Shown here: piece by piece, positions 12,881-33,643 of the stretch
How the letters are laid out: each line of letters begins with the position of its first letter
How positions within the stretch are numbered: position 1 is the first letter of the stretch
Origin: Obelidium mucronatum
Lineage: Eukaryota > Chytridiomycota > Chytridiomycetes > Chytridiales > Chytriomycetaceae
Reading direction: 5' to 3'
Assembly (NCBI GenBank): GCA_025765595.1
Contig: JAIVFH010000067.1
Coordinates: 1 to 64,000, forward strand
Length of the DNA: 64,000 bases
Made by a program: the position numbers and the translations under genes
The notes under the pieces: model-generated
Told to the model about the DNA's origin: nothing
Databases searched by the model: none
Seen by the model: only the letters and a program-made list of their open reading frames with translations

Positions 12881-15800
12881 TCAGCAATAGGAGACAACGG
12901 AAGATAGCTTTCGAGGCAAAAATTGCTGGCTCGCGTTCAAGAGTTGGTCTGGACTGCAAGTAGGAAGCGGTGCGATTTGCAGGCAGGTCGAAAGAAGATT
13001 CAAAATCTTGTCAAGTAACAAGTGACAATTCTCTAGCAGGGACAATACTGTTAATTTCGAAAAGAAAGACCCAAACAAATTGTCAGGTAGAATTGTCAAG
13101 TTAACAAAAATCACAAAAAAAAAAAAGGAAAAATAATAAAGACTCACGATTATTCGGCATCACCGTGTTGACCGCTCCAAAGGAGGCATATGGGCCAATA
13201 GTTTTGAGCAAGAAACTCAAATAAAATGTGCTCATCAAAAAGAGCAAATATGCAAATAACGCACGCATCACCAGGCTTGTAGGGCAGACATCAACTGTCA
13301 TTGGTTTCAAATACAGCTTTGAGGGACTGTCAACGGTCATTTCCAACTGTTTAAGAGTTGAGGTACCCTTTCTGCCACGCCCCCTGCTTCTACCCCTACT
13401 AGTGACGCCTCCGTCTGATTTAGAATCCCCACCTGTACCGTGTTTACTTTTGTTCACACCACTACCTACATCACTCCCACCATCACCACCATCACCACCT
13501 TCACCACCTTCACCACCATCACCACCATCACCACCATCGCCACCATCACCACCTTCACCGCTGTCACCACCGTCACCAAAGCCACCACCTTCACCACCGT
13601 CACCACCATCACCACCATAGCCACCTATCCCGCTGTTCCAAAGCTGGTCAACGTCATGTGAGACACGCATCAAGGAGATTGTCCAAGCCAGGTTTTCAAT
13701 AAACAAAGCAGATTTCGGATCCCTTTCCATTTGGAATCCGCACCTGGGATTAGAACACTTGAAAGTTTTGCTGGCCCCAATTCTGCTAATGCGACCACAG
13801 AAACAGAGAACTGTAGAGCCTGATGAACATGGATTTCATTAAACAAACCAATGCATACCAAATTGAAAAAGGTTGGGTCAAATACCACATTCAGTAACAA
13901 GCAAAACTATCCTGATTCTTCCTACACGACCCAGAGTAACATCATCCTGTGGTTCAGCCAAGTACTTTTTGATTTCCCCCTTTCCAGGAGACCCCTTCTC
14001 AAACCATGCGTCTGCATTTTGAGATTTCTTGAATGCCATCATGGTAGTTTTTCGACGAATTGTGGCATGGGCTGCATATGAAAGCACAGTCTTGACAAAA
14101 CCTGACAAAAGACCCTTGAGAGTTAGGAAGTATTCTTGGGCATCAAAAAATAAAAATTTAAACCTGGTATTCCCTGCTTTCCAGAAGTTTTCACTTTGTT
14201 GGTTGACTTGGAATTGAAATCGGAGGTGATATAGACATCTGCACTGGAATTCCACCTTGCTGCGTCAAACTGCACTTGTTTAGCATATCTTGCGAGCTTT
14301 TCATGCAGTGTCTTAATCCTTTTGGAATACAGGACCCCTTCTTCAGTTACCGCCTCTTTCCGCCTCTTATCCAGCAGATCATCAAGCTCCTTCTTTGCAT
14401 CAAATAGGGATCTTTCACAATCCCTTTGGTCAACGTCACCAACACCCAGCAAACACTGATCCATCTGTCGTTCAGCTTCACAAACAGACTGTCTTGCATC
14501 AATGACATCATCAACCTTCTCAAGGTCAGAATCACGCATAGACTGAAGTTTGTCAATTTGACCCTGCATGAATCGAATTTGGTGTTCAAACCCTGGAGCA
14601 ATCTGAATTCGATGACCTGATGATGCCTGCTGAGTTTCCACAGTTCTTCCACCTGGATCACTGGACAAGACGAGTCTTGTGGTTCCAAACGCCAAAGAGA
14701 AGGAGCTTTTAGGAGAAGGTGGGTCATTTCCATTTTCTTGATGGTCTCTCTCAACAGCAGGAGGATTCTGGACCCATATATGAGGGCTGCGAAAGTTGCC
14801 AGCCTTGGATGTAAACAAAGTTGCGGAATCTGGATCCATAACAGTCGGATCATATCTGGTTGACTTGTACTTGAACTTGCGGCTCAATGTCTCCAGCAAG
14901 GAATCAAACTTTCGTCGATACTTGGGAGAATTGGTTTCCTTGAACTTGGTGCGCAAATACTGGACCAAATGTGAAGCTTCTTGAAGAGTCTTGAGGGCAA
15001 CTGAGTCAGACTTGTCTTTGGCAAAGGCCTGCCTTGCTTCGGCCAAGTTCTTGACTGCATCAGTCAAGGGATCAACAATAGCTTGAAAAAGGGCTTCATT
15101 GGATGCCGGTTTCAGTTTGTGTGTAGGATACATGCGGTTGACAAAGATTGGTCTAATTGCCTCCAATTCCTTCACTGTCATGTGCACAGTAGTCAAGGGC
15201 AATGTTGCGGTGTAATCCCCAGTATCACGATCCAGAGAGACTTGGAGTTCACCAGGACAATAACTTAGAAATCGATTATCCCTGGGGAAATTGACAGTGC
15301 TCTGGTTTTGCAATTGCAACACAATCTGGGCTTTTTCTGAGACACTGATCTTGTACCCAAGTGGCTGTGTTACAAGACGCCTGTGGTTGTCTGGTCCACG
15401 TTGAAGAGCCAATTGCATCAGATTCAAACCAGACAGAGGAACGGGTTCAAAGTCGAAATCAAGAGGGGATTTCTTGAGAATATCAGGGGCATCAATGGAG
15501 TCCATAAACCAAGCTCCGACATAAATGTGAGTACCGGAGGTTAAGTCAAAGGAAGCCTGTTGATAGCCACGACGCATTGAGGAAACAAGCGCTGGAAAAA
15601 TGATTTTCCCATCAAGAGACAAATACTTGCGATTACTGGATGCAAGCTGTTCAACGAAGGGTTTGCCTTGAGGTATGGTCTTTTAATAAATTGATGTTGA
15701 AACAAAAGGTAACTGTAAATACCTGCTTTAACATGAATGGAAGCCCATGACAAATGACGAGCCTTCCAGTTTCTTGCTGAATTCTGACAGAATCTGGCAA

Positions 15801-18800
15801 TATTTTTGGCAGATTCTCCAAACTTTGACTGTATTTTCCCTCCATCTCCAAATAACATCCACTCCGCATTCACCAGCTTATCCATTCCATCAAGCAAATG
15901 AAGAAAATCATCTTTTGCCATATCAATCAAGCTTGAATATGGATGAGTAGGTACAGTGCGACTCCGGCTTGCAAGTTTCCCACCCCCGTGGTAATTTGCC
16001 AAAGACCACTGAACCGGCTTGAGATAGCTCATGGTATTATATAGAATATTGCTCCTCAATTGTTCTTTGGCTCTGTTGGCCAGTGTATCCCCCAAGTCTA
16101 ACCCCTCTCCCTCCTCCGCATCAGCATTGGCTTCGTCATTAACAACACCTCCAACTGCTACATCATTGTTTCCAGCATCTGAAACTACAAATGACACTGC
16201 CAAACCACTCAAAAACTCAAACAGACCCCTGGCAACAAAATCACTTGAGGTATTTGGCAGCACTCCAGTCATGATGGCATTATGACGGTATTTTGCACTT
16301 GCTTCAGGTGGTACACTCAAGAGGTAGGAGTAAATTGCTTTTTCGTGAGGAGAGAGGTGGTCAAGAGTGACTAGATGTTCAGTACCCAACTTTAAGCCAT
16401 CAACTTCATTGAATGGAGCTGTTTCAATGATGAATTCAAGACTTGCGTCAAAGGTGGTTTCAGCCTCACTGAGTGGTACATTGGAATCCGCAAACCGAGG
16501 GCATAAAAAGTCAGAGAGAAACTGAGCAGCCTCACTTTTAAGAACTGAAAAGGCTTCCTCCTCCAATCTTTTCAAAACCAACAGTTTTTCCTTCCTAGCA
16601 AGGGCGGCCTGGTCCTCCAAGCTTTCACTGGTTGACAATCTGGTTTTCTTTTGATTGGTTTCACGAACATTGCAGTTCTCTTCAACAGCAGCTTCCTGGA
16701 TGTCAAGGTCTGCTGGAAGTTGGGGCCTCACCCTGTACAATAAAACTCCATCACTGGAACCATCCATCCCTTGTCCAGCAATGTCAAGTTCTTTGAACTT
16801 TTCTTCCAAAATCTTTTTGAATTGTGGCAAGTTCTTTTTGGAAGAAATCCAGAAAGCTGAGAGAGCAGCCTTTTCAGGGATGGTAAATCCATTTCCTTCC
16901 AAAAGGAGAGAATCGATAATGGACTCCCTCAGCACAGCTAGACCATGGGGAGTTTGATCCAGAGGGTAGTAGCGGTAAGGCGTATAGTGGTTCATGGTTG
17001 CCCCATCATTATCCCTGATCCATCCAACAGCTCCAGCAGTCATGGCATCTTTTAATTCCTCCAAATCATCCGCATAGCAAGAGCCTTCAACATCAAGAAT
17101 AAGAGCCAACACCATCATCTTGGACCAGCTTGACCTCTTGGTCAAGGTCAACGAATGCAGCTCTTTAACAACCATGAGTAATGAAATAATAAATGATCCC
17201 TTTGATGCATTGAACAGACTCTTGACAATTTGCAACAATAGAGCCGGATCAGTTTCAAGCATGTTGGTGTCTTCCAGAGGGTTTGAGTATCGCTTGAAAT
17301 CATCAGACTGTAAAAACTTGGTGATTGCTACAGCACTTTCAGTCAGTGACAGGGATTGTTGATCATTCACAAGAACAGGGAGATTGAGTGAAACAGCCTT
17401 TGAATGGATCTTGGTAAAAAGGTTGCTGGCTCCTTGAACAAGCACTCGGCCAGTGTCAAAAATTACAGTGGCCAATTCAATTAAAACCTTCATGGTTATT
17501 GCATCACCCTCCATGACGTTGGCTTTGGGAAATGTGCAATATTTTGAGGTTATTTAGAATTTAAATTAATTTGGTTAAGTGACTAGTTATTCACCTTTTG
17601 CAGAGTAGCTATTCAAAACTTTCTGCTTGTGTTCAAGAGCACCTGATGCAATCTTTTCTCGGGAGCCAATCATATCCGCAAGGGCTGCCTCCATCAGTCT
17701 GTTGATTTGTTGGTTGAGTATTGATTGTCATTATTTGCCTTCAAACTTACGTTGTGTCCACTAATGTACCATTTGAGTCTGATGGCAGATCTTTTACCTT
17801 GTGATTAAAGCTTGCCAGCTGGGCTTTATCTGCTTGCACCATTGCTGCTCCATCCATCTCTTTTGGTTTTCTTTTGCTTTTGCTTTTGCTGATTTTGAGG
17901 ATTCGTCTGGTGGTCTAATATGGTTTGGTTAAGTTTTGCTTCCAGTAACAGACTTGTGAGTAAGATTTACCATTCTATTCCTCTCCTCTTTGTTTGCCTT
18001 TTTGTATCCTTCTTTGCCACATCATCTTGGACATCATCCTCAGCAATGTCCTCGATAACATCCTCCCCATCTTTGACCCCATCACTGACCACTTCTTCAT
18101 CTTCAGCAACCCGCCCATGCCCTTGGACCAAACCATCAATATGGTCAAAAAGAGCTGCAAATGGGTTGTTTTCTAGCTGATTCCAGAGTGCTGGAGTTGC
18201 ACCAGCTTGACCATGTATTGAAGGATTGGCATTACCAGACATGAGCCTCCCTCGATAACCAGGCGCAAATTTAAAAGAATAAAGACCTTGACTTGAAAAG
18301 GACAGAACCAGGGGTTGAATGTTTCGCTGCTTTCCTGCAGATACATTGTCTTGCATCTGAATCTCCAGTCCATTAACAGTGTGATTTTGGAACTTGAAGT
18401 GGAAATTTGGAGTATCGTCAGGAGGCATTTCCTGGACAGTTGAGCTCAGAGAAAAGTCCATAGTCAAAGTCAACCGGCTTGCCTGGTGCAGAGTCTGGGA
18501 TAATATTGGTTGAATACACAATTCCAAGCCACCTCTGATTGACAACAGTTAAATCTTCAAGGTCCAGCTTGGTTATGGATTCAGCAGACGTTCTAGCCCT
18601 GAAGATGTGCCCTCTTCCAAATGACGAGTCGAGAGCCCCCATGAGTAGCTTGCTAGATGGTGTGCCAATTCCAGCCAGTGAGGGATGAGTTTTGAGCAAC
18701 TTTTTGAAAAGCAAGTTGAAGTTGTCTCTGTAGGTATTCCCTAGAAATGAATTGAGGGAAACATCAACTGTTGCCATAGTCTGTGGGGCGACGGCTGCAA

Positions 18801-21800
18801 TGGCCCTATCCAGCCCCCACTTTCGCAAGGACATCGAATCCCATGTCTCTGACTTGGAGTCAAGCATGTCAGTGCGGGTTGGCAGCGGCCTGCTGATTGT
18901 GTGTAGTTTTGACAACGATTCTTGGCCCAAGTCAAAACAGCATGTTGTGGCTCTTTGGAAATCCCTCAAATACATGTGACTTTTGTAAAAGAGGGAGTGG
19001 ATGGCTTGGACCTTGACTTGAGAAACCGTGGGGTTGGCAGCACTTGGACTGAATGTGGAGGACTCCAAGACACGAAAGAGGGGAACCAGCTTTTGGGAGA
19101 AAAGAGATTGATTTAATTGGCCAATACTCAACAAATGAGATGGTTAAGAATAACGCTTACCTTTGAGATGCTATTGGATTTGTCAGCTCTTCTTTTGAAA
19201 ACAACAGCAACCTCTGAAACACTGATTGACTTTGTTGGATTGGCCAAGTCAGGATCTTTGGTATAGAATCTGTACATGACTGTTCCTGGGTGCCACGTTC
19301 CTGGAGACTTGTCCAACTCAGTCAGTTTATCCATAGCTCGCAGGAACACAACATGAATTCCCTCACGCTGGATCTTGTAGGACCGGCTGATTAACTTCTT
19401 GTTGACCAGTGACAAGCCAATCCCAAAGAGTTTGGCCAGTAGAGAGAGCTCACTGAACAAAGAGCAGGCTTGACTGAAGGAAGCTGCTGAGACTGGTTGG
19501 TTATCAACCACAAGCTGACAGGGATTTCCATTAGGATCATCCTCAACAACTGGAGGATCCACTTCCATGGCCACAGGGTCCGCAGGCAAAGTCTCCAGAA
19601 TTGCCTCCACCATCTCCACATCTTCTTCAGCATCAACAAGAGCCACATTACCCAAAGCATCAGTCTCAGTGGCCAAGTTGTGCTGATTGTTGTTGGCTAT
19701 TTGGGTCCTGAAGTGGTGAATGGGAGTATTCAAGAGTCTTGCGGCATCCATCCACTCAGAGGAAGCAACAATCTTGGCTGTTGTAAACTTGATGCTTCCC
19801 TTTGGATTATACTGCTGTTTAGCCCCAAGTCTAACCACCGCATCAGCCAGAGACAGTTGGTACAAATTTGCTGTCTGGTAGTTGCTTCGTCTTGCCAACC
19901 AGGGTCCAAAAGCACGAGCGGCATCTTGATTCTTGAGGTTTGCATAGGCTGTAGACCATTCTTCATCAGATAGGTCCACTCCAGTAAGACAACCAACAGT
20001 AGCCTTGATTTGGGTCAAGACCAGAAAGTCCAGCAACTTCAAGTCTTTGTCCCGCATAGGAGCCTTTGGTGGATCCAGAATCCAGTTTGCTGTGCCGCCA
20101 CCACCGCGTTTATTCCAAGTTGGGAATGTCCCTGACTCAAAGTTGTGTGGAGCTGTAGCAGGGTGGTTGATTGAAAAGATGGAGTGCTCCCCCACTTTGA
20201 CAATATTCCCAAGAATCTTCATGATTCCCTTGTTGGTGACACACTGGCTAGCATCCGATCCAGCAACCAGTTGTTTCGAAATTTCAGGAGTATTGGACCC
20301 AGGCTCCTGCTGATTGGGGTAGTTTCCAGCTTTCGAAATTAATCTGAGAGTGATGGCATACATGGCTTGATGAGTGGCTTCCATACAAGCTTTGGAAGAA
20401 GACCCCAAGAGTGGTTGCGAGCAAACACCATAGTCCCCCAGTAACTTTGGACAATAAAGGTAGCGATTGAGCGAGAGCATGAACACAACTCTTGGGTAAT
20501 TGGCCTGTGGGTGTCCAATAGCCTGTTGAAGAGTGCAGTGGCTGATGTCCCTGTTGGCTTGTAGCATGTCAAGACATGCGTCATTGATTGCCCAGCTCCA
20601 ATCTCCAGTAAAACAGGAACACTGGTCAATTCCATCATGAAAGCCTTGGGGGCACTTGTACAGACAGGGAACCACTTCAAACTTGGTGGTTGGCACCATC
20701 ACACCACCGTCAATGTCCAGAGAGTCGGTGTTGATGTTGACCTGCTGCTGATGGTGGATCACCTCCTTGATTTGAATCAGCGCGTTTTTGGCAGGGTGTT
20801 CAAACTGGAAAACTTGGAGAAACTCGGCAAGGCAAGTTTCCAAGCTGTTGAATACTTCAGGACTGGTGTCAAGATGGGCTAAAAAGTCTTGACATTTCTG
20901 CTGCGACCCCCCCGATCGAACAAAGATGTCATATTTCCTAGCATAGCGTTGGACAAGATGGGGGGGAGCAGGGGCTACAGTTCCATTGGCATTTACAATC
21001 AAGGAGCCAGCAGGAAGGGCAGGTAGGTCAGAATTGGCCTTGAGGCAAGAAACAGAATTGGCCTTGAGGCAAGAAAAAAATAAGCATGTATTATGATTGA
21101 TGGTAAAAAAGTGAACATTTTTTTACCTTTGATTTTTTGTTTGAGTCCTCCTTCTGTTGAGCCCTCGCGCGTTTTGGCAGTGGTGGTGGTGGTTGGGTGG
21201 TGGCCTCCTGTACAATGTCAATGGCTCTTTCTTTTCCTTTGCGCGACATTGGTTGCTTGGTTGTAGACGAGGAGGAGGGTGGAGGAATGGGGGCATCAAC
21301 AACCGGTTGCGGAACAACTGGAGGTGGATTAGAAGGACCTCCACCATCAACTGGTCTTTGAGCTTTCCTCCTGGTGCTGCCTCCAGGCAAATGCGATGAT
21401 AAGGTGAGTTGTGAGAGAAAATCGACTCCACAATCTGTAAAATGGTAGTATGGGTTAGGGTCACTTGTGTGGAAAATGTAAAAGATAACAAAAAAATAAA
21501 AAAGGTACCTGACAGCACCAAACAGTCTCTTAGAACTTTAGATTGATATAATAAATATGTTTGTTTCGTGGGCACCCCAGTCTTGCAATAAATCATCCGT
21601 CTTGCATCACCGACAGTAGTACCAGGGCCCACCTGCAGGGCCAGAGTTGTCCCGTTGAAAAGCCGGACATGGACTTTGGACTTGATGCAAGCAGCATGTC
21701 TCAAGACCTTCTCCTGTTCGATGGTGGAGGAGGACTTTGGAAAAATGTTGAAGTGTGTGTGAGTGTGTGTAAACAAATTAACAAACACACCCAATCAAAA

Positions 21801-22155
21801 CCAAAACCTTCAAGTCACATACCACAGGAACAGACATGACTGTATCATGTTCTTGAAGCAACGGTTGCATTGCTGGCATCGACTGTTCATGTGTTGTTGT
21901 AAGCTTTGTTTTTGGAGACAAGGGGCAGGGTGTCTGGCAACAACCCCACTTGAATGGCCACAGACAGTCAAGAAGTGCCATGGTTTGCAATCCTTGATCA
22001 TCTTGCAAGCAAGGAGTGTTGGCGGTTGTCATCAAAGGGGCTGGCATCTGTTGGTGCGCATCAAATGTTAGTGAGTGCACAAGGCCTATAACAGAGAAAA
22101 TCAAGGATCCAGTACTCACTTGGTTGGCCTTGGGCTTGCTATGGAGGCGCTGCAT
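12881..22155 (-). CDS. giant ubiquitin-like/Fanzor (TnpB-type) nuclease gene
   Basis: I read one minus-strand gene of about 14 exons and roughly 2,700 codons. Order: short leader; a 76-residue ubiquitin-like domain ending GG; a Pro/Ser-rich basic linker; about 1,900 residues I cannot assign; then a Fanzor/TnpB-type nuclease end. RuvC-I is VLSSDPGGRT (Asp codon 14657-14659). A helical stretch follows with IKTLHEKLARYAKQ. The join GAAT/GTGGTA (13888) to CATCAG/GC (13819) creates LLVTECSTVLCFCGRI, matching the E-x-x-T/S-x-x-C segment before the TnpB zinc ribbon; its second Cys pair is CSNPRC. RuvC-III is QMERDPKSALF (Asp 13719-13721). The tail is Gly/Asp-rich, then RGRSRGRGRK, then a hydrophobic stretch, and it ends in a last exon spliced at PNN/CGTGAGT. 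TnpB and Fanzor are RNA-guided DNA nucleases carried by transposons; activity here is inferred. The intron at 17.5-18.5 kb and a 37-nt intron near 18.5 kb are the weakest joins. A split into two genes near 17514 is possible. Confidence 0.65.
13440..13625 (-). repeat. trinucleotide-type GGTGGTGAT array in coding sequence
   Basis: A run of imperfect GGTGGTGAT units (CACCATCAC on the + strand) encoding a Gly/Asp/Glu-rich linker directly after the RuvC-III motif of the giant nuclease. The unit length keeps all frames open, which explains long shadow frames on the + strand. Confidence 0.8.
21379..21680 (-). other. ubiquitin-like domain of the giant nuclease
   Basis: Translating 21680-21509 and 21434-21379 across a 74-nt intron gives a segment that aligns with ubiquitin without gaps over 76 positions. 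It starts SKVHVRLFNGTTLALQV, keeps the Ile36-Pro37 region as TGVPTKQ, keeps LSD before a hydrophobic strand, and ends SSHLPGG followed by Ser. The terminal Gly-Gly at exactly position 75-76 is the site where ubiquitin-fusion proteins are cut by deubiquitinases, so the downstream protein could be released. The Lys48 position is an aligned Lys (YQSKVL) but most other ubiquitin lysines are absent. Confidence 0.7.
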
Positions 22156-22404
22156 GCTTGTTGAAAGTGTTCCAATTTCAGGGGTGGGTGATAGTCTTGC
22201 GTCACAGTTTTTAGCTACTTTTTTGGCACATTTTCAAGACAACGGATTTTTGATGAAGGAGAAAATTTTCTCCTTATTGTTCTCCACAAAGCCCATTGCT
22301 CCCGCTATGACTCTGATTAGAGACATGGCAGTAGTTAAACCTACATGCCCCTGTTTGGGGACACTTGGTAACATGAGGTGGGAACCAATGAGATTAAAAG
22401 CCAA

Positions 22405-22416
22405 TCAAGTGAGAGA

Positions 22417-22464
<48 letters not shown>

Positions 22465-22470
22465 TAGAGA
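22405..22470. repeat. GA dinucleotide microsatellite
   Basis: An almost uninterrupted run of GA dinucleotides between 22410 and 22470 in the 5' flank of the giant nuclease gene. Confidence 0.9.
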
Positions 22471-22489
22471 AAGGAGAGATTCATTCAAG

Positions 22490-23520
22490 AGAACAAATCA
22501 TGGAAACATGAAAGTTTCAAACGTGTAGCCAATCAAGGGATTCACACCAAACCAAACAAAAGACAAAGACACCACCAGCCGTGAGAGTTCTCAACATACT
22601 GGTTGTCAATGCAGCGCGTGAGAGGACATCTGCATTGCCTGGAGTCCAAGGCTTCGGGGCCTGGCTTGGCAAAGGCGTAGGCAGGCTCAAAGAATACAGC
22701 CCCCTCCTCCCCCAGACAGACCAACACAACTCTGCTACCCTGTCTGCCTCATACCCACAAGGATGGACCAACAATGAATAGCAGAGCCAACAGTTTTGGT
22801 AAACACAGTAAAACAGCCTATTGTAAATTGGAAGATTTAATAACACCTTAGATTTAAAAACAAAACTAAAGAAAAAATGGCTTTACCATGAATTAAAATC
22901 TGGCCACAATACAGGAGCTTAGGGATCCAAAACTCCAGGACCAATCCAAAAAACTTAATAGAAGCCAAAAGAAGACACCACCAGCCACAATCATTCTTGA
23001 TAAACTGGTTGCCCACGCAGTGTGTGAAAATCACAACACCTGCATTTGCTGGTGTCCTTGGCTTATATCGAGTGCCCATATATAGGAGAGAGGGAGATGG
23101 AAATGGAGGTGTGAGGAATAAATTCATTCAAAAGAACAAACTTTGGAAACAGAGTCAAAAACTCAGTTTCAGAGCGTAGGCAATCCAGGGATTATAGTCA
23201 CAATATGGCCATAGAAGTCGGAGACACCACCAGCCAAACAAACTGGTTTGCATAGGCAGCGAGATAAATCGCAACAACTGCCAATGCTAGTGTCCCCAAC
23301 TTCAAGGTCAGCGTGACAAGGGCGCTGGTGGACTCAAAAATTACAATCCCCATCCCTCCCAAGGTTGACCAACGCGACTCCAGAATCTTGGTTGCTCACC
23401 AAAAAAACCGGATAGACAGTTTAGGTAAACAAGAGTCAAACAGCCTACTTGAGGGTGTTAATATTGCACAATATTCATGAAAAATTTAGTTATTTATACC
23501 TTGAATTAAAAAGGCCTCAA
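22490..23520. repeat. three diverged copies of a stem-loop-bearing repeat
   Basis: Copies centre on 22567, 22974 and 23222, each beginning AGACACCACCAGCC or GAGACACCACCAGCC. They share ACTGGTT, a GCAG(C/T) block, TGC(A/C)A(T)TTGC(T/C), (G)GTGTCC and, in copies 1 and 3, ATTCATTCAA(A/G)AGAACAAA upstream and AAACAGCCTA downstream. GACACCACCAGC can pair with GCTGGTGTCC in copy 2, giving a hairpin of about 80-100 nt, and less well in copies 1 and 3. Frames are open in part but interrupted. The region is upstream of the giant nuclease ATG and may be repeat or non-coding RNA sequence; I cannot assign a function. Confidence 0.6.
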
Positions 23521-24155
23521 TGGTGATGTGTGAGAATGTTGTGTTTGTGGTTTCACATCCAGATGCACAATTCAACTATGAGAATGGTAGTGAAGCCATA
23601 ATGGACCTTGGATTCCGTCTATGAAAGCCTTGACAAAAGGACCGCGTTGTTGTTTGGTATTTTTCGCGTTTCTGATGCAGTTGTTGATTCATCATGAGTG
23701 TTGTAAACTGTCAACTTAAAGTCAGCACTTTTGGAGATTGCCCCATCAAATAAAATAAAACCCTGCACTCTTTACCTTTAAAAGACTCGGTTTTAGGCTA
23801 ATCAGAGCGCGTTTTCGCAATAGGTCTTTAGTTTTGAAGTCAGGTGCCAAGCAGCAGACTAGTGGTATAAACAAACATTAGCACTGGCACTGGAGCAGGA
23901 CATTGTGCTGATAAAATTATGCCACATACCAAAGAGAGCAGAGGGTGCAGGTGGGTGGCTAGTACTGAGGCCTGTCAAACCAGGCTGTTTGTCAACAGTT
24001 GCCAGTGCAGGGCCCCAGGATCATAGGCTCCGAAACCACTTGGTTGGTTGAATCAGCCACATTGCAGGGAGCGGTCCAGTGCCAGCAGTGCCGGTGTTGG
24101 TCTTGTGTTGGTGGTTGGTTGGTTGGTGTGGTCATTTTTGAGTTTTTTTTTGGGT
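23521..24155. other. intergenic, no gene seen
   Basis: No open frame of note and no recognisable domain. A run of TTGGTTGG repeats and a T-tract lead into the palindrome at 24156. Confidence 0.5.
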
Positions 24156-24193
24156 GTCAATAAATCTCATGTGTAGCACACATGAGATTTATT
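24156..24193. repeat. palindromic site 2, spacer TAGCA
   Basis: Left arm AATAAATCTCATGTG (extended outward GTC), spacer TAGCA at 24174-24178, right arm CACATGAGATTTATT. The arms match perfectly over 15 bases. The left arm together with the right arm of site 3 would give perfect 18-base arms (GTCAATAAATCTCATGTG). It could be an element end, a recombinase core site, or a two-way poly(A)/hairpin element, since AATAAA is present on both strands. Confidence 0.85.
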
Positions 24194-24341
24194 AATGAGC
24201 AACATTGCTATTTCCCAATCACTTTTGAATGTGGTTACAATAAATATACATTATTCTTATTACATTAAATGGAGATAATTTCTCTTTCAATTCACAAATT
24301 GGGGCCCAATTGGAGGAGTTGTGAGCTGGTGTTGGTTTCCC

Positions 24342-25322
24342 CAACACACCAAAATCTCGCACACTACCTATCGCGGTTTTGAGCGTGTTTTTGGTTAGTA
24401 TATATTACTACTAGCTCATTTTTAAAATTGCAGCTCATTTGGTGCCCCCGCGGGTTGTTGGGGGTGAATAGTGTTGGTGACCAGGCATCTTCACGTCTGC
24501 GGCTCAAGAACTACGAGCCGCCCCGCCATGCCCTTTCAACCATGGTTAGTAACTATACTAAACTACTCTGCATATTAATTGCAAAGTGCAGCGCCAAAGG
24601 GCGCTTGCGATACTGACATTTACCCAACACACCAAAATCTCGCACACTACCTATCGCGGTTTTGAGCGTGTTTTTGGTTAGTATATATTACTACTAGCTC
24701 GTGTTTAAAATTGCAGCTCATTTGGTGCCCCCGCGGGTTGTTGGGGGTGAATAGTGTTGGTGACCAGGCATCTTCACGTCTGCGGCTCAAGAACTACGAG
24801 CCGCCCCGCCATGCCCTTTCAACCATGGTTAGTAACTATACTAAACTACTCTGCATATTAATTGCAAAGTGCAGCGCCAAAGAGCGCTTGCGATACTGAC
24901 ATTTACCCAACACACCAAAATCTCGCACACTACCTATCGCGGTTTTGAGCGTGTTTTTGGTTAGTATGTATTACTACTAGCTCGTGTTTAAAATTGCAGC
25001 TCATTTGGTGCCCCCGCGGGTTGTTGGGGGTGAATAGTGTTGGTGACCAGGCATCTTCACGTCTGCGGCTCAAGAACTACGAGCCGCCCCGCCATGCCCT
25101 TTCAACCATGGTTAGTAACTATACTAAACTACTCTGCATATTAATTGCAAAGTGCAGCGCCAAAGGGCGCTTGCGATACTGACATTTACCCAACACACCA
25201 AATTCTCGCACGCTACCTATCGCAGTTTTGAGCGTGTTTTTGGTTAGTATGTATTACTACTAGCTCGTGTTTAAAATTGCAGCTCATTTGGTGCCCCCGC
25301 GGGTTGTTGGGGGTGAATAGTG
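24342..25322. repeat. 283-bp tandem repeat, about 3.5 copies
   Basis: Copies start at 24342, 24625, 24908 and 25191 with only a handful of substitutions; the last breaks off in GGGGGTGAATAGTGT. Each has CTATCGCGGTTTTGAGCGTG, a GTGCCCCCGCGGGTTGTTGG block and CGTCTGCGGCTCAAGAACTA. The array runs straight into the leader of the H3-tail gene (ATG 25375), so the unit may be a multiplied promoter or 5' untranslated segment. The same short open frame recurs in three copies only because the copies are near-identical. Confidence 0.9.
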
Positions 25323-25374
25323 TGGTTGTTTGGGGTGAATAGAAATAATATTTATTTTATTTTTCATAATCAAA

Positions 25375-26453
25375 ATGGCAAGAACAAAGCAGAATGCTCG
25401 TAAATCCACTGGAGGAAAGGCGCCACGCAAACGGCTTGGAACCCAAGCAAACAAGAAAGGTGCGCCAGCAGATGCAGCAGTCTTTGGAGAGCGGGGTGAA
25501 GCGATAAGACACATTGTTGAAACAAGCAGCAATCCCCACAGCATCCATCTCCAGGCTGCCAAAGACCTTCTCAACAGAATGCACACGCTCTTCAACCTAC
25601 CGCAATCTGGCCTCCCCGACAACCTCCCATCTCTCCCCCCCTTCTCCATGAATGAGTTGCGCCAGAACGCCCCACTCCTACTTCTTGATCCAATCAAGAC
25701 GGGCCTCCCTGTTTCCGAATTTAGATCAAGAATCCCTATTCGCTTACTGCCATACCTTATGGAGAAGTCCATTTGTTTCACAACCATGAAACAAATGAAA
25801 CAATATGTGGATCTGCCAGACTATGGAGATGCAGCAGTGTACCCTAGTGCAGCTGTTGCCAGGGAAATGGAAGCTCTAGTGGAAACTCTTGGAGTGTGCG
25901 CTGTGCAGGTTGTTTATGACACAATGAAAAAGTAAGTTGTGGTTTTTTTGTTGGTGGGCTGTTAACAAAAAACTGTAGTCAGACAAAGACCATTCCAGCT
26001 CATTCCACCATTGTTGTTGTTGAAGCCACCTCCGTCATTCTTTTTCAACCACACTACACAGGGGATCTGTGGTCTTTGCCTGCTGTAAACTTGTTGAGCA
26101 AGTTGACGTCTCGTCGAATGCGAAGCTTGTACGTGGTCAATGGAACACAGACAACATCTGACGATTGTGCTTACCGCTGCATCGCATTCCTTTTGTTTTA
26201 TTTGGGTCTTCCACCCAATGGTGGCTTGTCACGTTGCCAAGCTCGTCGCTTTGAAAGGGTCATTGTGAATGATATCCCTCCAGGCTTGAACATATGTCGC
26301 AAACTCAACATGAATGAAAGGGAGTTGGTAAAGGGATTGGGTGAGGAGTTTGAGGAGCTGGTTCATAGTGTTGGGTTGGAGCTTGATGAAATCAAGAAGG
26401 ATGCGGTGCGGGTTATTGAGGACCCACCATATGATCCAAAGATGGATGATTGA
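25375..26453 (+). CDS. histone H3 tail-bearing protein of unknown function
   Basis: The first 19 residues, [19 protein letters not shown], copy the canonical H3 tail with one change (Thr6 to Asn). They keep the positions of Lys4, Lys9, Ser10, Lys14 and Lys18. Similarity fades after about residue 31 and the rest is not a recognisable H3 core. It has a Pro/Leu-rich middle, then [20 protein letters not shown], which is helical and could be part of a histone-type fold, but weakly so. Exon 1 ends AAAAA/GTAAGT at 25932. The best frame-keeping acceptor I find is TTGTTGAG/CAAG near 26098, which adds a second part with [17 protein letters not shown] and an acidic end ([10 protein letters not shown]). 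A nearer acceptor (ACACAG/GGG) would instead end the protein at 26161. The gene follows the 283-bp array and lies between the two TAGCA palindromes. Mimicry of H3 to engage readers or writers is inference. Confidence 0.65.
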
Positions 26454-26725
26454 TGGGGAGGGGGAAGTGCTTACAGCTCTTTTTTTTTTGGTTACAGACT
26501 CAAGAATAAACTGTGAAGGAATCAACTGCAACAAAACCAACGGCCACTCCAGGAAGCCTGAAACTTTCAGGAATATCTAACTTGGTTTTTAATACAGCTT
26601 TGACATTCATTATGGGATTTTTCTTCCAGGCCGAGAGGGGCTTGTGTACACTGTGAAGGAATCAATTAAAACAAAATGCACAACTTTGAAAGTACTCTTT
26701 ATTCTTACTTACTCTAAAAACTAAT

Positions 26726-28851
26726 TTACCCATCCAACAAGCCCATCTCACTCACTGAACCAGAATCGGCAAATTTACTGGAATCCCACTCCGCCAGATA
26801 AAGATCAATGGGAGTGCCTTTGAAACCCCGGGGATTGTTCCACTCGGCAAGCACAGTGGAGGTTTCCTTCACTGCAGTAGAGTCACCAATTGCTCTCATG
26901 TTATATTCCTCCCAACTCTCCAAAGGCATGTCCACAATGTCTTCCAAGTTATCAGCAACTACAGAACTACTGTCACCACCAAACAAATCAACAAGTCTTG
27001 CAGCTCGCATATAACGGTGCAAGTAGTTAAAAACTTCACGGTCACTTTCAACAAACCCCAGCATAGTATGCCCTAGAAAAAAAGCAGTTACTTTCAGGTA
27101 GAGGGGAAATTGATACAACTAACCCTCACGTAGCACGTTTCTTGCAAGTTGAACAAAGTGGACAGAATGGCGGAAACCTTTGATGTAGGCAGCTGCTGAG
27201 CTACTTTGGACCCGCCCATATGATGTAATTGTGCGATCATCATAAGGGTCGGCACACAGTTGGTCAAAAAACTTGTATTGCGGTTTACCTCCTTCTACAT
27301 AGGTGGTCACGGTGCGTGGTTTTGATTCGGGGGGAAACAGTTGGCATTTGCAAAATAAGATGCCAACAGGCGACTTGCTTTGATACTGGGGCTTGACAGA
27401 TTGTCTCTTGCACCAACAGTTGTCAGCCAACTTTGGGATGTCAGCCTCATTTCCCACTTCACAATGGGCAGCTAGACCTAGGAAGGAAACTTCGGAGCCG
27501 GGAATGTAAGTCCTTGCGCTCCACTGCTGTGGTGGTGAATCTGTAAGCAGGCGTGAATAATTTGCCTCAACATAGCGTAGGTCGTCCTCAACAAGAGGCA
27601 TTCCACTGGCACTTTGGAGTATAGCTGCATCTCTTTCTCCAATTTTTTGAGATCTGATTATTGTAAAATCACTGATTAGAACAATCTGAAAGAAATCAAG
27701 CCAAAAAAACCAATTCACCTGCGACGGTATTCCTCCATGAATTTGTCTGTTTGATGAAACAGAGTCGTTTTTGTGGTGCTCCCAATGCTCATCAATGTTG
27801 AATAAACGCCCATGACCTGGGCATCAAAATGGTCCAGTTGCTGAAACGTGAGTTTGGGAATACTCATCAGCAGTGCTACTCCAGTGCTCTTGATATCAGA
27901 TTCAACCAGTTGGATTCCAAAAAACTCGCTCATGCACTGGGCGTAGGCGTTTTGTCTATTCAACTTCATTTTCTTTAAGGCAGACTTGAGGATTGAAAAC
28001 TTTCCAGGACCCAACTGCAATTTCTCTGAATTATCAGCAGCCCACTCCTCGATATCAGACCAAGTTTCGAGATGGTATTGGAAATTATTTCCAGAAATCC
28101 GTTCAACTCCAAGTGGTAATTCGACGCCATTCAAGATCATGAATTTTTTGCCAGCACGATGATATTCTTGTAGCCATTCTGACCTTGCACGGGTCTCTGG
28201 CCAAAAGACACGTTCCGCCATTTGTGCAAGAAGTTGTGTCACAATGTTGGTCTCTTCCATTTCCAGAGGATGCATGACATGACAGACTCCATGGTGCTTT
28301 AGACGCGATAATAGCTCATTGGTGTTTGAATAGTCGAGAATAGCTGTAAAATTATCCGCATTTTAAGGATTTTAAAGCCAAAAGAGTAAGTACAGAAATG
28401 AGGACTCACTTGGAAAGGGTGGGTATGTGGCAGACACCTCATCAAAAGCGGCATGAATACAGTCTGTGGCCAATTTCATGGTACTGTCAACTGTCCATTG
28501 ATTCAGGACAGGCCACATGTACATTTCGACAGAGTATGTGTTATGATCGATCATACAGACCCAGTCATGCTTTGTCCAGTGGTTTTGGACTGGATTTTTC
28601 CGCAACTGCGTCCTGTGAGTCAGAATGGCATCTAGTCTCTCTTTGAATGCATCGCAGATGGCGGGGGTCCAATCCTTGGGTAGCTCAAACAGAGTGGCAA
28701 TCACATAGAACTGGGTTGGGAGGGCTGCTCCTTGGATCCCTCCCTTTTCGCAATGTCCTTGAAGTGTAGCCCGCACTTCAGCAGGATCAAGTAAGGTCCC
28801 CCACTCAATGAGTGGTCTTCTCTCTGGTGGGCCAGCACTGATTGGGTTCAT
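26726..28851 (-). CDS. unknown multi-exon protein, about 600 aa
   Basis: Minus-strand gene with ATG at 28849-28851 (MNPISAGPPERRPLIEWGTL) and about four exons; the end reads SEMGLLDG before the stop at 26726. I recognise no domain. Visible features: Trp-rich N-terminal part (WTPAICD, HWTKHDWVC, MYMWPVLNQWT); a central helical part with QLLAQMAERVFWPETRARSE; and a possible metal site NCWCKRQ...FCKCQLF in the third exon. The last exon is acidic. Introns lie near 28350-28410, 27640-27715 and 27075-27120. It converges with the H3-tail gene, about 270 bases away, and lies downstream of the other unknown gene on the same strand. The trio and their palindromic bounds suggest one mobile unit, but no transposase or integrase fold is recognisable. 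Confidence 0.6.
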
Positions 28852-29023
28852 TAAATTGAACTAGATTAAATTTTTAAATTATTAAAAATAAAAAATACAT
28901 TTATTTCATACATGCTAAAAATAATCAAACTAGTAATAATCAAACATCTAAACTAATGCAATACGTGTGAATAAACAAAGGTATACTTGGTGGCAAGAGA
29001 TCCCAAAACAGTGCATCATCTTT

Positions 29024-31800
29024 TACTCCTCACCACTGTTGGGCTGTGGTGCTGTTGACGGGAGGTGGGGTGAGCTGGCGTCCCAATCAAAGTAGTCATC
29101 ACTTTCCAACAACTTTTCACCAGGATTCTCCACCCCTGCCTGTTTGGCCTGTGGTTCAACTCCTTTTCCAGCCAAAGTTCCTAACTCACCCAAACCTCCC
29201 AACTGTATCCCTCCCCCCACCAAGTGTTGGCTAATGTCCAAACCTGCCTCCTCATTGTTGTTTGCAGCTACTGATTCTTCAGGAGCACCATCACTCCCGG
29301 TGCTGGGACCAGAATCCCCATCCACAACAACCACTTGACCCAACAAGTTTTCAAAACCATCCACTGATTCCACTTCTTCCACTGATTCCGCTTCTGCCAT
29401 GGTGGTATCTTCAGGAGCATTTGGGTCATCTTCTTCCTGCTCTCTAATGGCTTCCGTGACCTCCGAGTTGGCTTCTGCTGCTGTAGCACAATCCTCTGGT
29501 TCATCCATCTCAACCACAATGCTTCCCTCATCTGAATTGTATTCCTCCTCATTATCAGATGAATCAGATACAAACTCCTTGGAAAGGGGTTTGGCTAAAA
29601 CCAAATCAGAAACACATAATACAAAAAGTAAATCAAACCTGTTTTGAAAACGTTTGCATACAGTTGGCCAAGCTGTTTAGCAAATCCAGCATCTGCGGCA
29701 TACCGTCTGAACTCTTCCATCGATAGGTGCCCATACTTTAGAAACATAGATGCCGCGTCATAGAATTCGCTCTTGACAAAGACAGGCTCAACTGTGTGTT
29801 CAATAATAACACAGTCATCGCCGTCTTCATTGCTGTCGAAAGTTCCTTCAAACGCATCAATAAAGAAGCGCTTATTCTTGGCAATCAATAGATCCGGGTC
29901 AGGCTTGACTGCTTGTTGGGGGACTTTTATTTCTCTGGAACGGGTGCGGGATTTTCTAACTCTGGGAGATGGTGAATAGTTATGCCTCTTGGTGCCTCTG
30001 GCTGGTTTTGGCTTGGTGGATGGAGCGGCAGCAGGAGGGACATCCTTGGCAGTTTTTGTTGTGTCTTTCTTGGGAGATTCAGCAGTTGCAGTTTCAGTGG
30101 GAGGAGCTGAGTCAGTGGAAGCGGGATTGTTTGACTGCGGAGGTGCTGTTGATGGTGGGGATACTGCCGATGGTGAGGTTGCTGTTGGAGGTGGTGGTGG
30201 TGATGGGGCTGGTGGTGGTGGTGATGGGGGGGGAAGAGCAGATTGTGGAGGAGAAGTTGCTGGTAAGGGTGAAGTGGATGGTGGGGGTGAAGTTGCTGAT
30301 GGCGGATTTTGTTGAAGAGATGGGATTGGATTAATGTCAGCTGAAGTTGGTTGATCCGGTGTTGGGGGAGGAGGAGTGGGGGAGCGATCGCGTGTTACAG
30401 GCCATAGAATTTCACCATCTTCAGGCTCGGGACAGTAGTAATCCTCTGCATCACGGAAATACCTGCCTTGATTGTTATCATTCCCCTCCTCTTCGGCGCC
30501 ATCTGTGATGGTTTCCTCTAGAACAGAAGTTGATCCCTTTTTGCTGCCTGAATGTTTCACACCATCAGCAAGATTTAGGAAAAAATAGTCAAGCAAAAAC
30601 ATACCGCGTTTGTTGACTTCAATTAGCCTACACAGGCTTGTGGTAGTTACAGCATCCAGTACACACGCAGCTTTAAGCTCTGAGGATATTTCCGCCACTG
30701 GATGTATTGACGGTTTAGGCATAAAGTCCTTGAATGCTTTAAGCAAGAGTGAGGGGAAATCAGCCGGCTCCATCTCCTTCACTTGCTTTCCATCCAAGTA
30801 GTTTGTTGCAAACCAGCGGGTCTTTGCAATAGCTACTCCAGCTGTAACAACCTGACGGAATTTAGCCTCAGAGTTGGAGTTAACAGGCTGACCAGTGAGC
30901 TTGACAGCTTTTCGACACATTTTTTGGAATGCAATATACTTGGTATCCGTGGTAGCGCGAGTTTCAGAATCGTATTGATCCGACACAAGACTTATGGGCG
31001 CAGTTCAATTAGAATATCATTCAATTAGAACATCACTTCAAGCAATTGAGACAAAGAACTCACCAAGCATAGCTGCATAAGAAGGCCAGTTTTACTTGCT
31101 CCTCTTTAGCTTCTTGCGTTTTGATTTTATAGCTGCGCTCATATTGTCTGGCAGCTAATAAGCACGGTTGAGCAATTTCCGCATCATCGCAAAAGGGGTT
31201 CTTTGTGATTTGATTAAAACAGTTTTGATGAAGACAGAATATTTACCTCTGCATCTTGATCAATGCGCGTTTGATCCAGAGGAAGTTCCATCAATGGTTC
31301 TTCCAAAAGATGTTCATTTGATGAGGAAGGATTGGTGGAATCATTTGGCGTATTTGGTGTTGTTTCTAAAAAAGAGTGGTTTAGTTGTTGGGTCATCAAG
31401 TAGGTGATAAAAAGGATTTCACCTCTCAATATTTCGACAATCCTTGGCCTGGGAATAGAAGGAGAGGGTATGTTCTCTGTTGATGTTTTATTTTTATCAA
31501 GTGCTTGGCAACAGAATGCATTCTCTCACCACTTGATAGGAGACCGGCCCTTCCTACTATCGATAAGCCTGTTGGTTCTCTGGTTACAACTAGAGGTGCG
31601 TAGTAAGTCTATACTTGGATTGGACAGAGTTTTGAATGCTGGACTTACTTGAATTTCCACTCGCAGTAGTTTTCAATGGCCCCAAAGCTGCTGCTGTTGA
31701 CCCGGCATCTGATGGATTGATAAGGGCCAGGGCATGGATTCGTTTACTGTTTGCAAGGGCCTCTTTGCGGTTTTGCATAATTTGGGCGTGGTTGCTCATT
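29024..31800 (-). CDS. unknown multi-exon protein with Pro-rich and acidic regions
   Basis: The ATG at 31800 lies about 20 bases inside palindromic site 3; the protein ends QPNSGEE at 29026. The N-terminus MSNHAQIMQNRKEALANSKR is basic and helical. Later exons give SDQYDSETRATTDTKY..., a region with CRKAVKLTGQ, then a long Pro/Ser/Thr-rich stretch (29.99-30.4 kb). Next comes a basic motif cluster KRHNYSPSPRVRKSRTRSRE that could be a nuclear localisation signal. A helical acidic segment and a highly acidic C-terminal exon (29024-29594) rich in Glu, Asp and Ser close it. No known family is apparent. A basic patch, a disordered Pro-rich linker and an acidic tail are typical of chromatin-associated or activator-like proteins, but that is inference. 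Exon joins between 31000 and 31700 are tentative. Confidence 0.55.
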
Positions 31801-31818
31801 TTTTGATTTTTTTGGTTG

Positions 31819-31862
31819 GTCAATAATAAAAATCATGTGTAGCACACATGAGATTTATTGAC
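31819..31862. repeat. palindromic site 3, spacer TAGCA
   Basis: Left arm (GTCAATAATAAAAATCATGTG, slightly decayed), spacer TAGCA at 31840-31844, right arm CACATGAGATTTATTGAC. Same spacer and same orientation as site 2, 7.67 kb away, so the two form direct repeats around the block with the H3-tail gene. The right arm lies at the 3' edge of the CENP-B-like ORF. Confidence 0.85.
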
Positions 31863-32435
31863 AAAAAAACTTGACAGACTCGCACACACCCAATTGGTTA
31901 ACGCTTTAAATCTGGCACCGATTGGGTGATTAGTAACAACAAGAGAATACATCCACTCCCGCAGGTCACTGAAGGAAACTGTAAGCCCGTGATTTCTTTG
32001 ATCTGCAACAATTGAAAACAGTTCTCTTTCTTCGAAAGGGAATCGGCATTGAAGCATGGTAGGAGAAAAGACTGCTGTTGAGACAATTCCATCTCTATCT
32101 ATTAGTGTTTGCGACAATGGCTTTGGTTGTTGGATTAGTGGTTTCCTTTGTGTTAGCAGGTTTACACCACCACCAGGCATACGTTTTCCCCATCCTAAAT
32201 GAACAGCTCCTTTTCCTCTAGCTTTAACATCAGCCTGGATTATTTTGATAGATCTGATCCACTTTGAGAGAGTAGACCTGGACAAATGGTGATCAGCTGC
32301 CACTTTGGCGGCAATACCACGTGTCGTTAGACTGTTGGTAGAGGCTGAAGCAAGAAGCTGTTGATAGATAGCTACAACGCGCATTTTGTACACTAGAGTG
32401 TGTGAAGACCTTGAGCAGGTGTTGGTAATTGTCAT
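31833..32435 (-). CDS. pogo/CENP-B-like DNA-binding protein without catalytic domain
   Basis: Open frame of about 200 codons. The first half has a helix-turn-helix of the Psq/pogo kind (LTTRGIAAKVAADHHLSRST, then LSKWIRSIKII). The second half resembles a CENP-B-type HTH (FPFEERELFSIVADQRNHGL, then DLREWMYSL and ARFKALTNWV). In pogo/Tigger/Fot1 transposases these two helix-turn-helix modules precede a DDE catalytic domain. Here the frame stops about 15 residues later, inside palindromic site 3, and no DDE domain follows on this strand. It may be a transposase cut off by insertion of the neighbouring block, or a domesticated DNA-binding protein. The unknown gene at 29024-31800 begins about 40 bases past the stop. 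Confidence 0.65.
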   Translation of the reverse strand: MTITNTCSRSSHTLVYKMRVVAIYQQLLASASTNSLTTRGIAAKVAADHHLSRSTLSKWIRSIKIIQADVKARGKGAVHLGWGKRMPGGGVNLLTQRKPLIQQPKPLSQTLIDRDGIVSTAVFSPTMLQCRFPFEERELFSIVADQRNHGLTVSFSDLREWMYSLVVTNHPIGARFKALTNWVCASLSSFFVNKSHVCYT

Positions 32436-32473
32436 GGTTTGACAATTTTTTATTTGAGTCTTTCTTTTTGAAA

Positions 32474-33643
32474 TTAACAGTATTCGCCTTCCTCCAGTGC
32501 ATCAGTGATGACATCAAGCAGTGGGTCAATTGGATAAGTCCCATCATTCTCTTCCAGAAGGCGCCCAATATACTTCTCGTAAACGTCTTGAACTTGAACA
32601 AGCTCTGTTGCACCATTTACAGCATCAAGCTCATCTTTTGTCATGAAGTTATTGGGTAAGAGTGCAGTAGCCGCTTGTATATGCACCAGTTTCGAATTGT
32701 TAAGGTCAAGTAGATTCGTTAATGCTCTGTCAAAAGTGACAAAATTCAGTTGTCGGCGTGGATTGAAGATTTTGCTGAACTTCTCAAGTTCTTCATGACT
32801 GAAATCGGGTGCATATGTGTTTTCATTTATGGGGTTCTTCCACTCATGTACTGGTTCTCCTGAATCGGTTGGTTTGATGATTTGGAGTCCTGAGTCGCTG
32901 TTCTCTACTAGAATTGGCTGTCCTGCGTTTGACTAGCTAATTGGAACTTTTTTTTCTTTTGGTTTATAGAACTGTGAACTGTTGGAGATGCTGGCTCCAA
33001 GGCGCCCTAGAGTTTGCTTGCAATTGTCACAGGGACATTGTGTTTTCACCACTGTGCCCGCTTTGTTTGATTTAAGTTCTATAGAGATGGTCAGTAGGCT
33101 TTCAAGCATCTTTTCTTGGTCACTTTTGAAGGTTTCTTTTTCCTTGTCGGAGAGCTCATGAATTGATCGGCCCTGATATTTGTCATCCAAAATCTTGATT
33201 TGAATGGCCAGTATACACTGCGACACAGCAGACTCTTCACTACATGAATCCAAAGGATACTGCTCTATTTGGGACCTCGGTGGTTTTTGTAAGAATATCT
33301 CACGTTGCAGGGTAACATCTGGATTCAGCTGGATGTTGTGCTTCCTTAACAGTGTACGTTGCAACTCGGAGAAAACTTGCTGGTTTTCATTCAACTGCTC
33401 AAGACCTTTTTCAAGCTCCTTTTTCAGGAGTGGAGTCGGATTTTTTGAGAGTTGATCATTATACTTTTGACGCATTTCTCCGAAAGGATCCACCAGCTTT
33501 TCCAACGCCTTGCGGCCGGATGAGGATAATCCAAGAAAATTGCCGGCGGGCGAAGCAGTTATACTGGCAAAAACATTCTTAATTGGTCTCATTGCTTGTT
33601 GTTGTTGAACATTCTTGACTCTTGAGTCTTCAAAGAAACCCAC
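32474..33643 (-). pseudogene. unknown coiled-coil protein with one in-frame TAG
   Basis: The frame from ATG (33643, MGFFEDSRVKNVQQQQAMRP) runs to the TAG at 32933-32935, then stays open in the same frame to 32474. That gives 390 codons interrupted by one stop. The first part is rich in Gln, Lys, Glu and Leu, with heptad-like stretches (EKGLEQLNENQQVFSELQRT) and a pair of Cys pairs (CPCDNC). The part after the TAG reads ...ENTYAPDFSHEELEKFSKIF... and ends ALEEGEYC. No family recognised. A single stop in an otherwise intact frame suggests a recent nonsense mutation, stop readthrough, or an intron I fail to see. The gene lies between the CENP-B-like ORF and an ankyrin-like gene that starts divergently. 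Confidence 0.5.

Follow-up and report, generated by a model that had tools for sequence, protein, structure and literature searches.

A giant transposon-borne gene in the chytrid Obelidium mucronatum with a putative Fanzor-type nuclease at its C-terminus

The stretch of Obelidium mucronatum DNA analysed here (assembly GCA_025765595.1, contig JAIVFH010000067.1, 64,000 nucleotides; hereafter the window) carries on its minus strand a giant gene at 13101..22155, divided into 12 exons by 11 introns. Quite probably, the window holds a degraded copy of a giant transposon cargo gene, and at least one other copy, on contig C35, encodes an intact protein with a Fanzor-type nuclease C-terminus. From N- to C-terminus, this protein would comprise a ubiquitin-like domain ending in GG, about 2,000 further residues, a Fanzor-type RuvC and zinc-ribbon domain, and a glycine-rich tail. 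Fanzors are eukaryotic relatives of the CRISPR nucleases. The original prediction, made from the letters of the window, had described a giant Fanzor-type nuclease gene at this place; it had missed that the gene is the cargo of a multi-copy transposon with terminal inverted repeats (TIRs).

Near-identical copies of the gene were found on other contigs when the O. mucronatum assembly was searched, which makes the gene model testable. From the ATG at 22155, exons 1 to 6 occupy 22155-22120, 22047-21823, 21734-21509, 21434-21127, 21038-19161 and 19089-17971, and exons 7 to 12 occupy 17914-17751, 17698-17595, 17522-15723, 15666-14164, 14101-13886 and 13819-13101, with the stop at 13101. All introns are of the GT-AG type, with lengths of 52-88 bp in the window copy and 53-87 bp in the copy on C35 (C35:43471-53242), which is 97.3% identical to that of the window. 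Applied to C35, the exon boundaries of the window give an uninterrupted frame of 2,762 amino acids (aa), and the exon open reading frames (ORFs) lie where they had been placed, so the prediction of one minus-strand gene of about 2,700 codons holds. An origin of the giant size in faulty splicing is ruled out by this 97% identical copy, open throughout, and by selection along the frame. The window copy itself is not intact: compared with the other copies, its frame goes wrong in the interval from ~18.5 to ~18.0 kb, a stop codon being reached after 1,114 codons. Both C35 and C90 are open across the region of this break, and the frames of the copies on C54 and C90 break at other places. Many of the differences in exon length among the copies are multiples of three, and the remainder are single-copy frameshifts. 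The gene is real and giant, and the window copy is degraded and, because its frame is broken, not itself a working gene. One joint was also corrected: the zinc-ribbon junction had been given short by one G, and the correct reading is LLVTECGSTVLCFCG.

Purifying selection along the frame is seen in four copies of the gene. The ratio of nonsynonymous to synonymous divergence (dN/dS), calculated with codons containing gaps or stops dropped, is 0.22-0.34 over the whole frame in all six pairs of these copies (2,744-2,758 codons). In the nuclease core (residues 2265-2580), the six pairs give 0.11-0.23, and the N-terminal residues 1-2264 give 0.23-0.35. Between the four copies, introns diverge by 2.6-4.8%, synonymous sites by 6.2-8.2% and nonsynonymous sites (dN) by 1.4-2.3%. 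Because introns diverge less than synonymous sites, the low dN/dS is less striking when set against the introns, dN being about half of the intron value.

The database proteins related to the giant gene number 16, and all come from Obelidium, Rhizoclosmatium and Podochytrium, the first two being chytrids of the Chytriomycetaceae. Within the O. mucronatum genome, a second, diverged family (family B, L008/P0006) shares 31% identity with the giant gene and keeps the nuclease residues. These residues are also kept in Rhizoclosmatium, and in Podochytrium (P0002) the Glu, the cysteines and the RD are kept, the DPG site not being covered. Thus, Glu, cysteines and RD are common to three genera and DPG to two. 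The zinc ribbon of P0010, on C18, is degraded. Family B has copies of its own, namely L008/L009 (contigs C389 and C194) and others on C263 and C73.

Motifs and profiles support the assignment of the C-terminus to a RuvC and zinc-ribbon domain of Fanzor type that keeps the D, E and D positions; the original interpretation as a whole is supported in part. The RuvC-I motif SSDPGGRT (14642..14665; this and all further motifs on the minus strand) contains the predicted catalytic Asp D2282 and is kept in Rhizoclosmatium and Obelidium family B. Under relaxed hhalign settings, VYITSDFNSK (14207..14236) takes the place of the Fanzor I/L-x-P-x-F strand, which is the canonical RuvC-II site, and lacks its Glu. 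The alternative catalytic Glu, E2517, would be that of LLVTEC (13887..13904), six residues before the zinc ribbon once the exon is spliced to 13819. The ribbon itself, CFCG...CSNPRC (13740..13805), has the ligands C-x-C and C-x4-C, and is followed by the RuvC-III motif ERDPKSA (13707..13727) with the predicted catalytic Asp D2552 and by the glycine-rich tail with its GGDGGEGG repeats (13464..13625). The order in C35 is SSDPGGRT, a long predicted-helical stretch, VYITSDFNSK, LLVTECGST, C2524-x-C2526, C2540-x4-C2545 and ERDPKSA. The Fanzor/TnpB hallmarks that had been claimed for the C-terminus (DPG, a Glu six residues before the zinc ribbon, four cysteines, RD) are therefore present and in order. 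It had further been proposed that the catalytic residues are intact and the protein possibly active; the residues are indeed in place, but the window copy is frame-broken.

Two published descriptions of the family can be compared with these motifs. The long Fanzor/TnpB motif given in excerpts of one study, D-X(125,275)-[TS][TS]-X-X-C4 zinc finger-X(5,50)-RD (PMC3627910), fits C35 with spacings of 237 and 5, S2520 and T2521, and RD at 2551-2552. The Fanzor fingerprint in part of another consists of DPG at RuvC-I and a Glu six residues before the zinc finger (PMC10711439). DPGG is present in C35 and in P0001, P0003, P0005, P0006, P0007, P0011 and P0012, which are the relatives covering the site, and the six residues from Glu to the first Cys are found in C35, P0001 and P0006. 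The canonical Glu is lost, the aligned old site reading VYITSDF or FLTPNFD without a Glu. Neither of two relaxed Fanzor patterns matched any of 5,000 shuffles of the 2,762-aa protein.

An independent Fanzor set was assembled from viral contigs by scanning them with a DNA pattern for E-x-Y-T-[ST]-K-T-C-x-x-C-G. Among the 31 loci found, nine were Fanzor-type (DPG) and six TnpB-type (D-phi-G), and seven fragments, seven duplicates and two loci without D-x-G were dropped. Because the pattern demanded E-x-Y-T-[ST]-K-T-C, both groups have the Glu beside the zinc finger and represent only that signature. A chytrid profile was built from seven sequences, five of which were kept by hhalign filtering (P0003, P0005, P0007, P0009-P0011 and L009 were left out). 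Against the nine Fanzor-type proteins it reached an hhalign probability of 95.9% and a score of 65.8 (best of 200 column shuffles, 23.3), and against the six TnpB-type proteins of the same scan a probability of 74.5% and a score of 44.4, so the relation is closer to Fanzor. The confident part of the Fanzor match covers 48 columns around the zinc ribbon; under relaxed settings, it spans DPG to RD: the DPG, Glu and RD of the two sides coincide, and TSDF falls on the IPxF strand. In the opposite direction, a hidden Markov model (HMM) of the nine Fanzor-type proteins was run on 2,861 sequences (window ORFs of at least 40 aa, chytrid proteins and 2,000 shuffles). The first 10 places were all chytrid, led by P0006 (4.3e-6), the window ORF 13104-13835 (1.2e-5) and the C35 protein (5.9e-5), whereas the best shuffle reached 0.26; ORF 13104-13835 was the best of the window ORFs. 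When the 65-aa zinc-ribbon piece was compared with PDB, the best, though marginal, match was the TnpB-like protein L79 (9b0l; E 0.018), a compact chain of 520 aa, with Glu, cysteines and RD aligned. As a yardstick, the bacterial TnpB of ISDra2 retrieves L79 at 1.1e-10, and no chain under the name Fanzor. L79 is presumably the mimivirus Fanzor2.

Upstream of the nuclease, the ubiquitin-like domain that had been predicted is confirmed by Pfam (PF00240). It is split over exons 3 and 4 (21379..21677, minus strand), ends in LSSHLPGG, and is matched on the spliced C35 exons with E 2.2e-10 and 40.6 bits and on one window exon with 1.1e-6. The scan of the N-terminal exons returned no other Pfam family, and in the annotated R. 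globosum protein P0017 the ubiquitin-like domain was not found by Pfam. Similarity to Fanzor ends at RuvC-I, and by sequence comparison ~2,000 residues of no recognised fold separate the ubiquitin-like domain from RuvC.

The gene is carried by a whole TIR transposon of ~19.4 kb (type A; 13046..32482, minus strand), whose termini are TACTGTTAATTTC in inverted orientation. The TIR cores lie at 13046..13058 (plus strand) on the 3', gene-side end and at 32470..32482 (minus strand) on the 5' end; the termini face inward at both ends, and the likeness extends, by eye, over ~45 bp. Copies of the repeat end at 13045/13046 in 12 places among the matches listed, with 11 different flanks. The other end lies at 32482-32485 in the copies; of the eight loci examined, six showed the terminus pattern, and in these six the flanks differ right outside the 5' terminus. 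The element is mobile, as its copies stand in distinct flanks. A TA borders both ends, with the flanks diverging right after it, which fits a TA target-site duplication; the TA may itself be part of the TIR, and no empty site was searched for. The copies on C35, C54 and C75 have a second type of 5' half (type B), with the switch at 22820. This position had been considered as an element end and was rejected, since C35, C54 and C75 share upstream sequence and the position is thus where one type of 5' half gives way to the other. A TIR partner near 50.6 kb was likewise rejected: a lone copy of the 3' block lies there, and the true partner is at 32482. The 5' end of the element also contains an ORF (31833..32501, minus strand) with a possible helix-turn-helix, weak in Pfam (E 0.18), which has 21 matches in the genome (fragments and itself included) and no match in PDB; as a guess, it is a candidate terminus-binding protein. 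An open frame at 32474-32932 (minus strand) reaches the 5' end, and insertion of the element into a gene is therefore possible. About 12 kb from the family-B copy on C194 lies DNA that resembles the element's 5' half (68%).

The 3' end of the element has a conserved terminal block (13131..13202, minus strand) that is dispersed in the genome and contains a 5' splice-site-like AATC/GTGAGT. Of 44 genome matches, 24 fall wholly within the last ~180 bp of the element, and the conservation is supported by an alignment of eight copies. In the copies read, some indels in the block have lengths that are not divisible by three, a hint that it is conserved as nucleic acid. The block of ~60-72 bp also occurs alone, at 50631-50704 of the window and on six contigs (C488, C629, C136, C578, C125 and C16); these lone blocks match at 83-89%, and the match stops before the terminus. 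By eye, 13048-13147 (minus strand) resembles an intron, with a GTGAGT donor, a CTGAC branch-like site, a pyrimidine run and an AACAG acceptor at the terminus, so transcripts may splice into flanking DNA. The original prediction had extended the gene to 12881. Coding stops at 13101, within the element, and 12881-13045 lies outside the transposon, which ends at 13046; that last stretch is flanking DNA, reached through the intron-like 3' end.

The reading of one giant protein with a Fanzor-type C-terminus has to be weighed against several results that count against it and against other explanations. The locus could be divided into two or more adjacent genes, for an N-terminal protein (the ubiquitin-like domain and the unassigned part) and a separate RuvC protein. 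NCBI models are indeed split, P0014 starting in exon 4 and ending in exon 9, and P0001, P0006 and P0017 being partial. However, all 12 exons of C35 lie in one frame with canonical short introns, and P0014, a model of the C54 copy, connects exons 4 to 9 in much the way proposed here. The gene models P0001, from R. globosum, and P0006, from Obelidium family B, join the DPGG part to the zinc ribbon, a join whose absence from transcripts had been named as grounds for giving up the prediction. A single Rhizoclosmatium model, P0005, matches exon 9 with residues 79-449 (34-49% identity) and the DPGG exon with residues 472-616 (41%), the stretch between the exons being skipped. Finally, R. globosum P0017 (1,357 aa, with 35% identity across 72% of a 999-residue query) ends in ...QMAPKVLSGKG and P0005 begins with MAPKVIKILKEEQ; the end residues of the one are the start residues of the other, which suggests one gene split in two by annotation. 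Separate genes are thus very unlikely. The C-terminus could also be a zinc-ribbon protein of another family, with DPG and RD by chance and no RuvC fold. Several results count for this or against the main reading. Curated profiles stay below threshold: PF07282 gives 21.8 bits (E 2.1e-4) on the C35 zinc-ribbon piece, for a cut-off of 26.3, is absent from the other three of the four pieces, matches none of the relatives P0001-P0005, and has no match in the assembly at E 0.001, and the NCBIfam profile guided_TnpB gives 12.7 of 100 bits, for P0006 alone among four proteins. Compared with PDB, neither phmmer of 579 aa nor the A2 profile (24 matches up to E 10) retrieved a TnpB or Fanzor, and the AlphaFold models are unusable for the fold (mean predicted local distance difference test score 37 for P0001 and 52 for P0006). 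The zinc ligands are C-x-C and C-x4-C and not CxxC, and the Asp-to-Glu distance is 235 in C35, 293 in P0001 and 216 in P0006, so that a search pattern, though not a definition, given in part of PMC10711439 (CxxC...CxxC zinc finger, 120-160 residues from DPG to Glu) failed. The strong part of the hhalign match, moreover, is confined to the surroundings of the ribbon. Against this, both of the diverged Obelidium families and Rhizoclosmatium have the whole motif in order, as does Podochytrium for the part outside the DPG region; the profile match is nearly three times the best shuffle and better for Fanzor than for TnpB; and no shuffle fits the Fanzor patterns. We regard a chance resemblance as highly improbable. 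The profile check that had been proposed for the C-terminus was thus passed in part: Fanzor is the best of the things tried, and the curated profiles remain below their cut-offs.

A Fanzor-descended RuvC and zinc-ribbon nuclease that has lost RNA guidance is a rather unlikely explanation. The giant N-terminus would then recognise DNA, transposon ends or chromatin, and the nuclease would belong to the transposition machinery, perhaps as its transposase. Sequence comparison detected no Fanzor REC or WED upstream of RuvC-I: residues 1926-2270 and two relatives, compared with the N-terminal halves of seven of the nine viral-contig Fanzor-type proteins, showed no similarity (hhalign probability 0.1). 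Folding of the element's 3' end is not better than that of shuffled sequences (z -0.49), and no Rfam family matches it at the gathering threshold; these two tests found no guide RNA, and the conserved block is only a lead. The N-terminal 2,264 residues are constrained, and Pfam recognised no transposase in the element ORFs scanned, the genes of the 5' half not being modelled. On the other side, the RuvC-TNB unit is RNA-guided in the characterised Fanzor/TnpB families, the conserved 3'-terminal block is present, and WED and REC evolve fast, so that sequence comparison could miss them. The TA borders and TIRs, too, fit a DDE transposase.

Besides the giant gene, the element carries an ORF of 186 aa (25375..25935, plus strand) whose first 37 residues match histone H3. 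In the C118 version, residues 1-37 of H3 are matched with E 5.5e-9, and nothing behind this tail matched a histone. The ORF is open throughout in C67, C118 and C149, and in C36 it is interrupted by a single stop. The type-B copies on C75, C54 and C35 have diverged versions that keep the tail (MARTRQTAGKSTGGK...); ~60 codons on, these run into a stop, or else into an intron that was not recognised. Thus, the H3 tail is kept in two diverged element types. Further tail matches are presumably the genome's own histone H3 genes, given that the match is to the tail only. Among the matches listed for histone mimic with transposon, the titles and abstract starts contain no transposon-encoded H3 tail.

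Read as a Fanzor-type nuclease, the giant protein can be fitted into a mechanism. The RuvC part is likely to cut DNA, because the D-E-D set is conserved. By analogy with what has been proposed for transposon-borne TnpB and Fanzor, its likeliest use, though a tentative one, would be to break target or emptied sites, so that repair would help the element to persist and spread. Guidance of the nuclease by an RNA is a tentative proposal, and the place to expect any guide RNA is the element's 3' end. As for the long N-terminal part, it probably stands in for REC/WED or encloses these domains, and serves to recruit host factors; host enzymes could possibly cleave after the GG of the ubiquitin-like domain. 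The element is probably moved by a separate transposase that uses TA targets. The boldest form of this proposal, which we consider improbable, is a new giant Fanzor-derived lineage in which a compact RNA-guided enzyme has become part of a multidomain protein of 2,700 residues, acting together with the H3-tail mimic and a cleavable ubiquitin-like domain; such a transposon would cut DNA and at the same time manage the chromatin and DNA repair of its host, and its nuclease might act without REC/WED of the known type or be the transposase.

Several known systems can be compared with the giant protein. Like the Fanzor1 protein SpuFz1 of Spizellomyces punctatus (residues 1-638; PMC10432273, in part), it is eukaryotic and transposon-borne, with DPG, a Glu beside the zinc ribbon and the ribbon between Glu and RD, and its ribbon shares G-x-x-K-x-F-x-C with the viral-contig Fanzors. 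In the available portions of two studies, Fanzor1 proteins are mostly 600-700 aa (PMC11423790) and up to ~800 aa long (PMC10711439); the giant protein is about four times the usual 600-700 aa and has the ubiquitin-like domain added. It further differs from Fanzor1 in its zinc ligands, in the 216-293 residues from RuvC-I to Glu, in the lack of a detected REC/WED, and in that an RNA partner is only hypothetical here. For PpFz1 of Parasitella parasitica, excerpts of PMC11423790 describe an FRI insertion in RuvC that binds cyclophilin, and the likeness lies in extra material tied to host factors; the extra ~100 aa of PpFz1 are inside RuvC (PMC11423790), whereas the giant protein has ~2,000 aa in front and a longer stretch from RuvC-I to Glu. 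The Fanzor1-carrying Tc/mariner elements PGv-1, PUl-1 and PUl-4, as covered in excerpts of PMC3627910, are likewise TIR elements that carry a Fanzor, and they have TA targets, to which the TA borders seen here may correspond. Some elements of this kind encode a Mariner transposase (PMC3627910), whereas the element described here is 19.4 kb long, carries the H3-tail mimic and has no recognised transposase. Among the matches listed for Fanzor with transposon and fungi, with chytrid, and with eukaryotes/domain fusion, the titles and abstract starts mention no such giant Fanzor protein. One search for a conventional Fanzor in the rest of the genome, of a kind unable to show absence, found none.

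If a 2,762-residue member of the Fanzor family is indeed under purifying selection, the RuvC and zinc-ribbon unit can serve inside a large multidomain machine. The chytrid, with several copies and with relatives in two further genera, offers a tractable case for the role of extra Fanzor domains in the host, and the system bears on why many transposons carry Fanzor. The presence of the H3-tail mimic in the same element suggests possible interference with chromatin.

Other features of the window can be described briefly. Beside the H3-mimic ORF lie 283-bp tandem repeats in 3.5 copies (24336..25323), and the unit has ~11 matches on C149 and four on C118. Outside the element, 8178-9020 and 11528-12361 (minus strand) are two related genes in tandem, with DNA that is 77% identical; the second encodes, behind a stretch that is hydrophobic by eye, a TIR domain in the Pfam sense (TIR_2, 4.9e-15).

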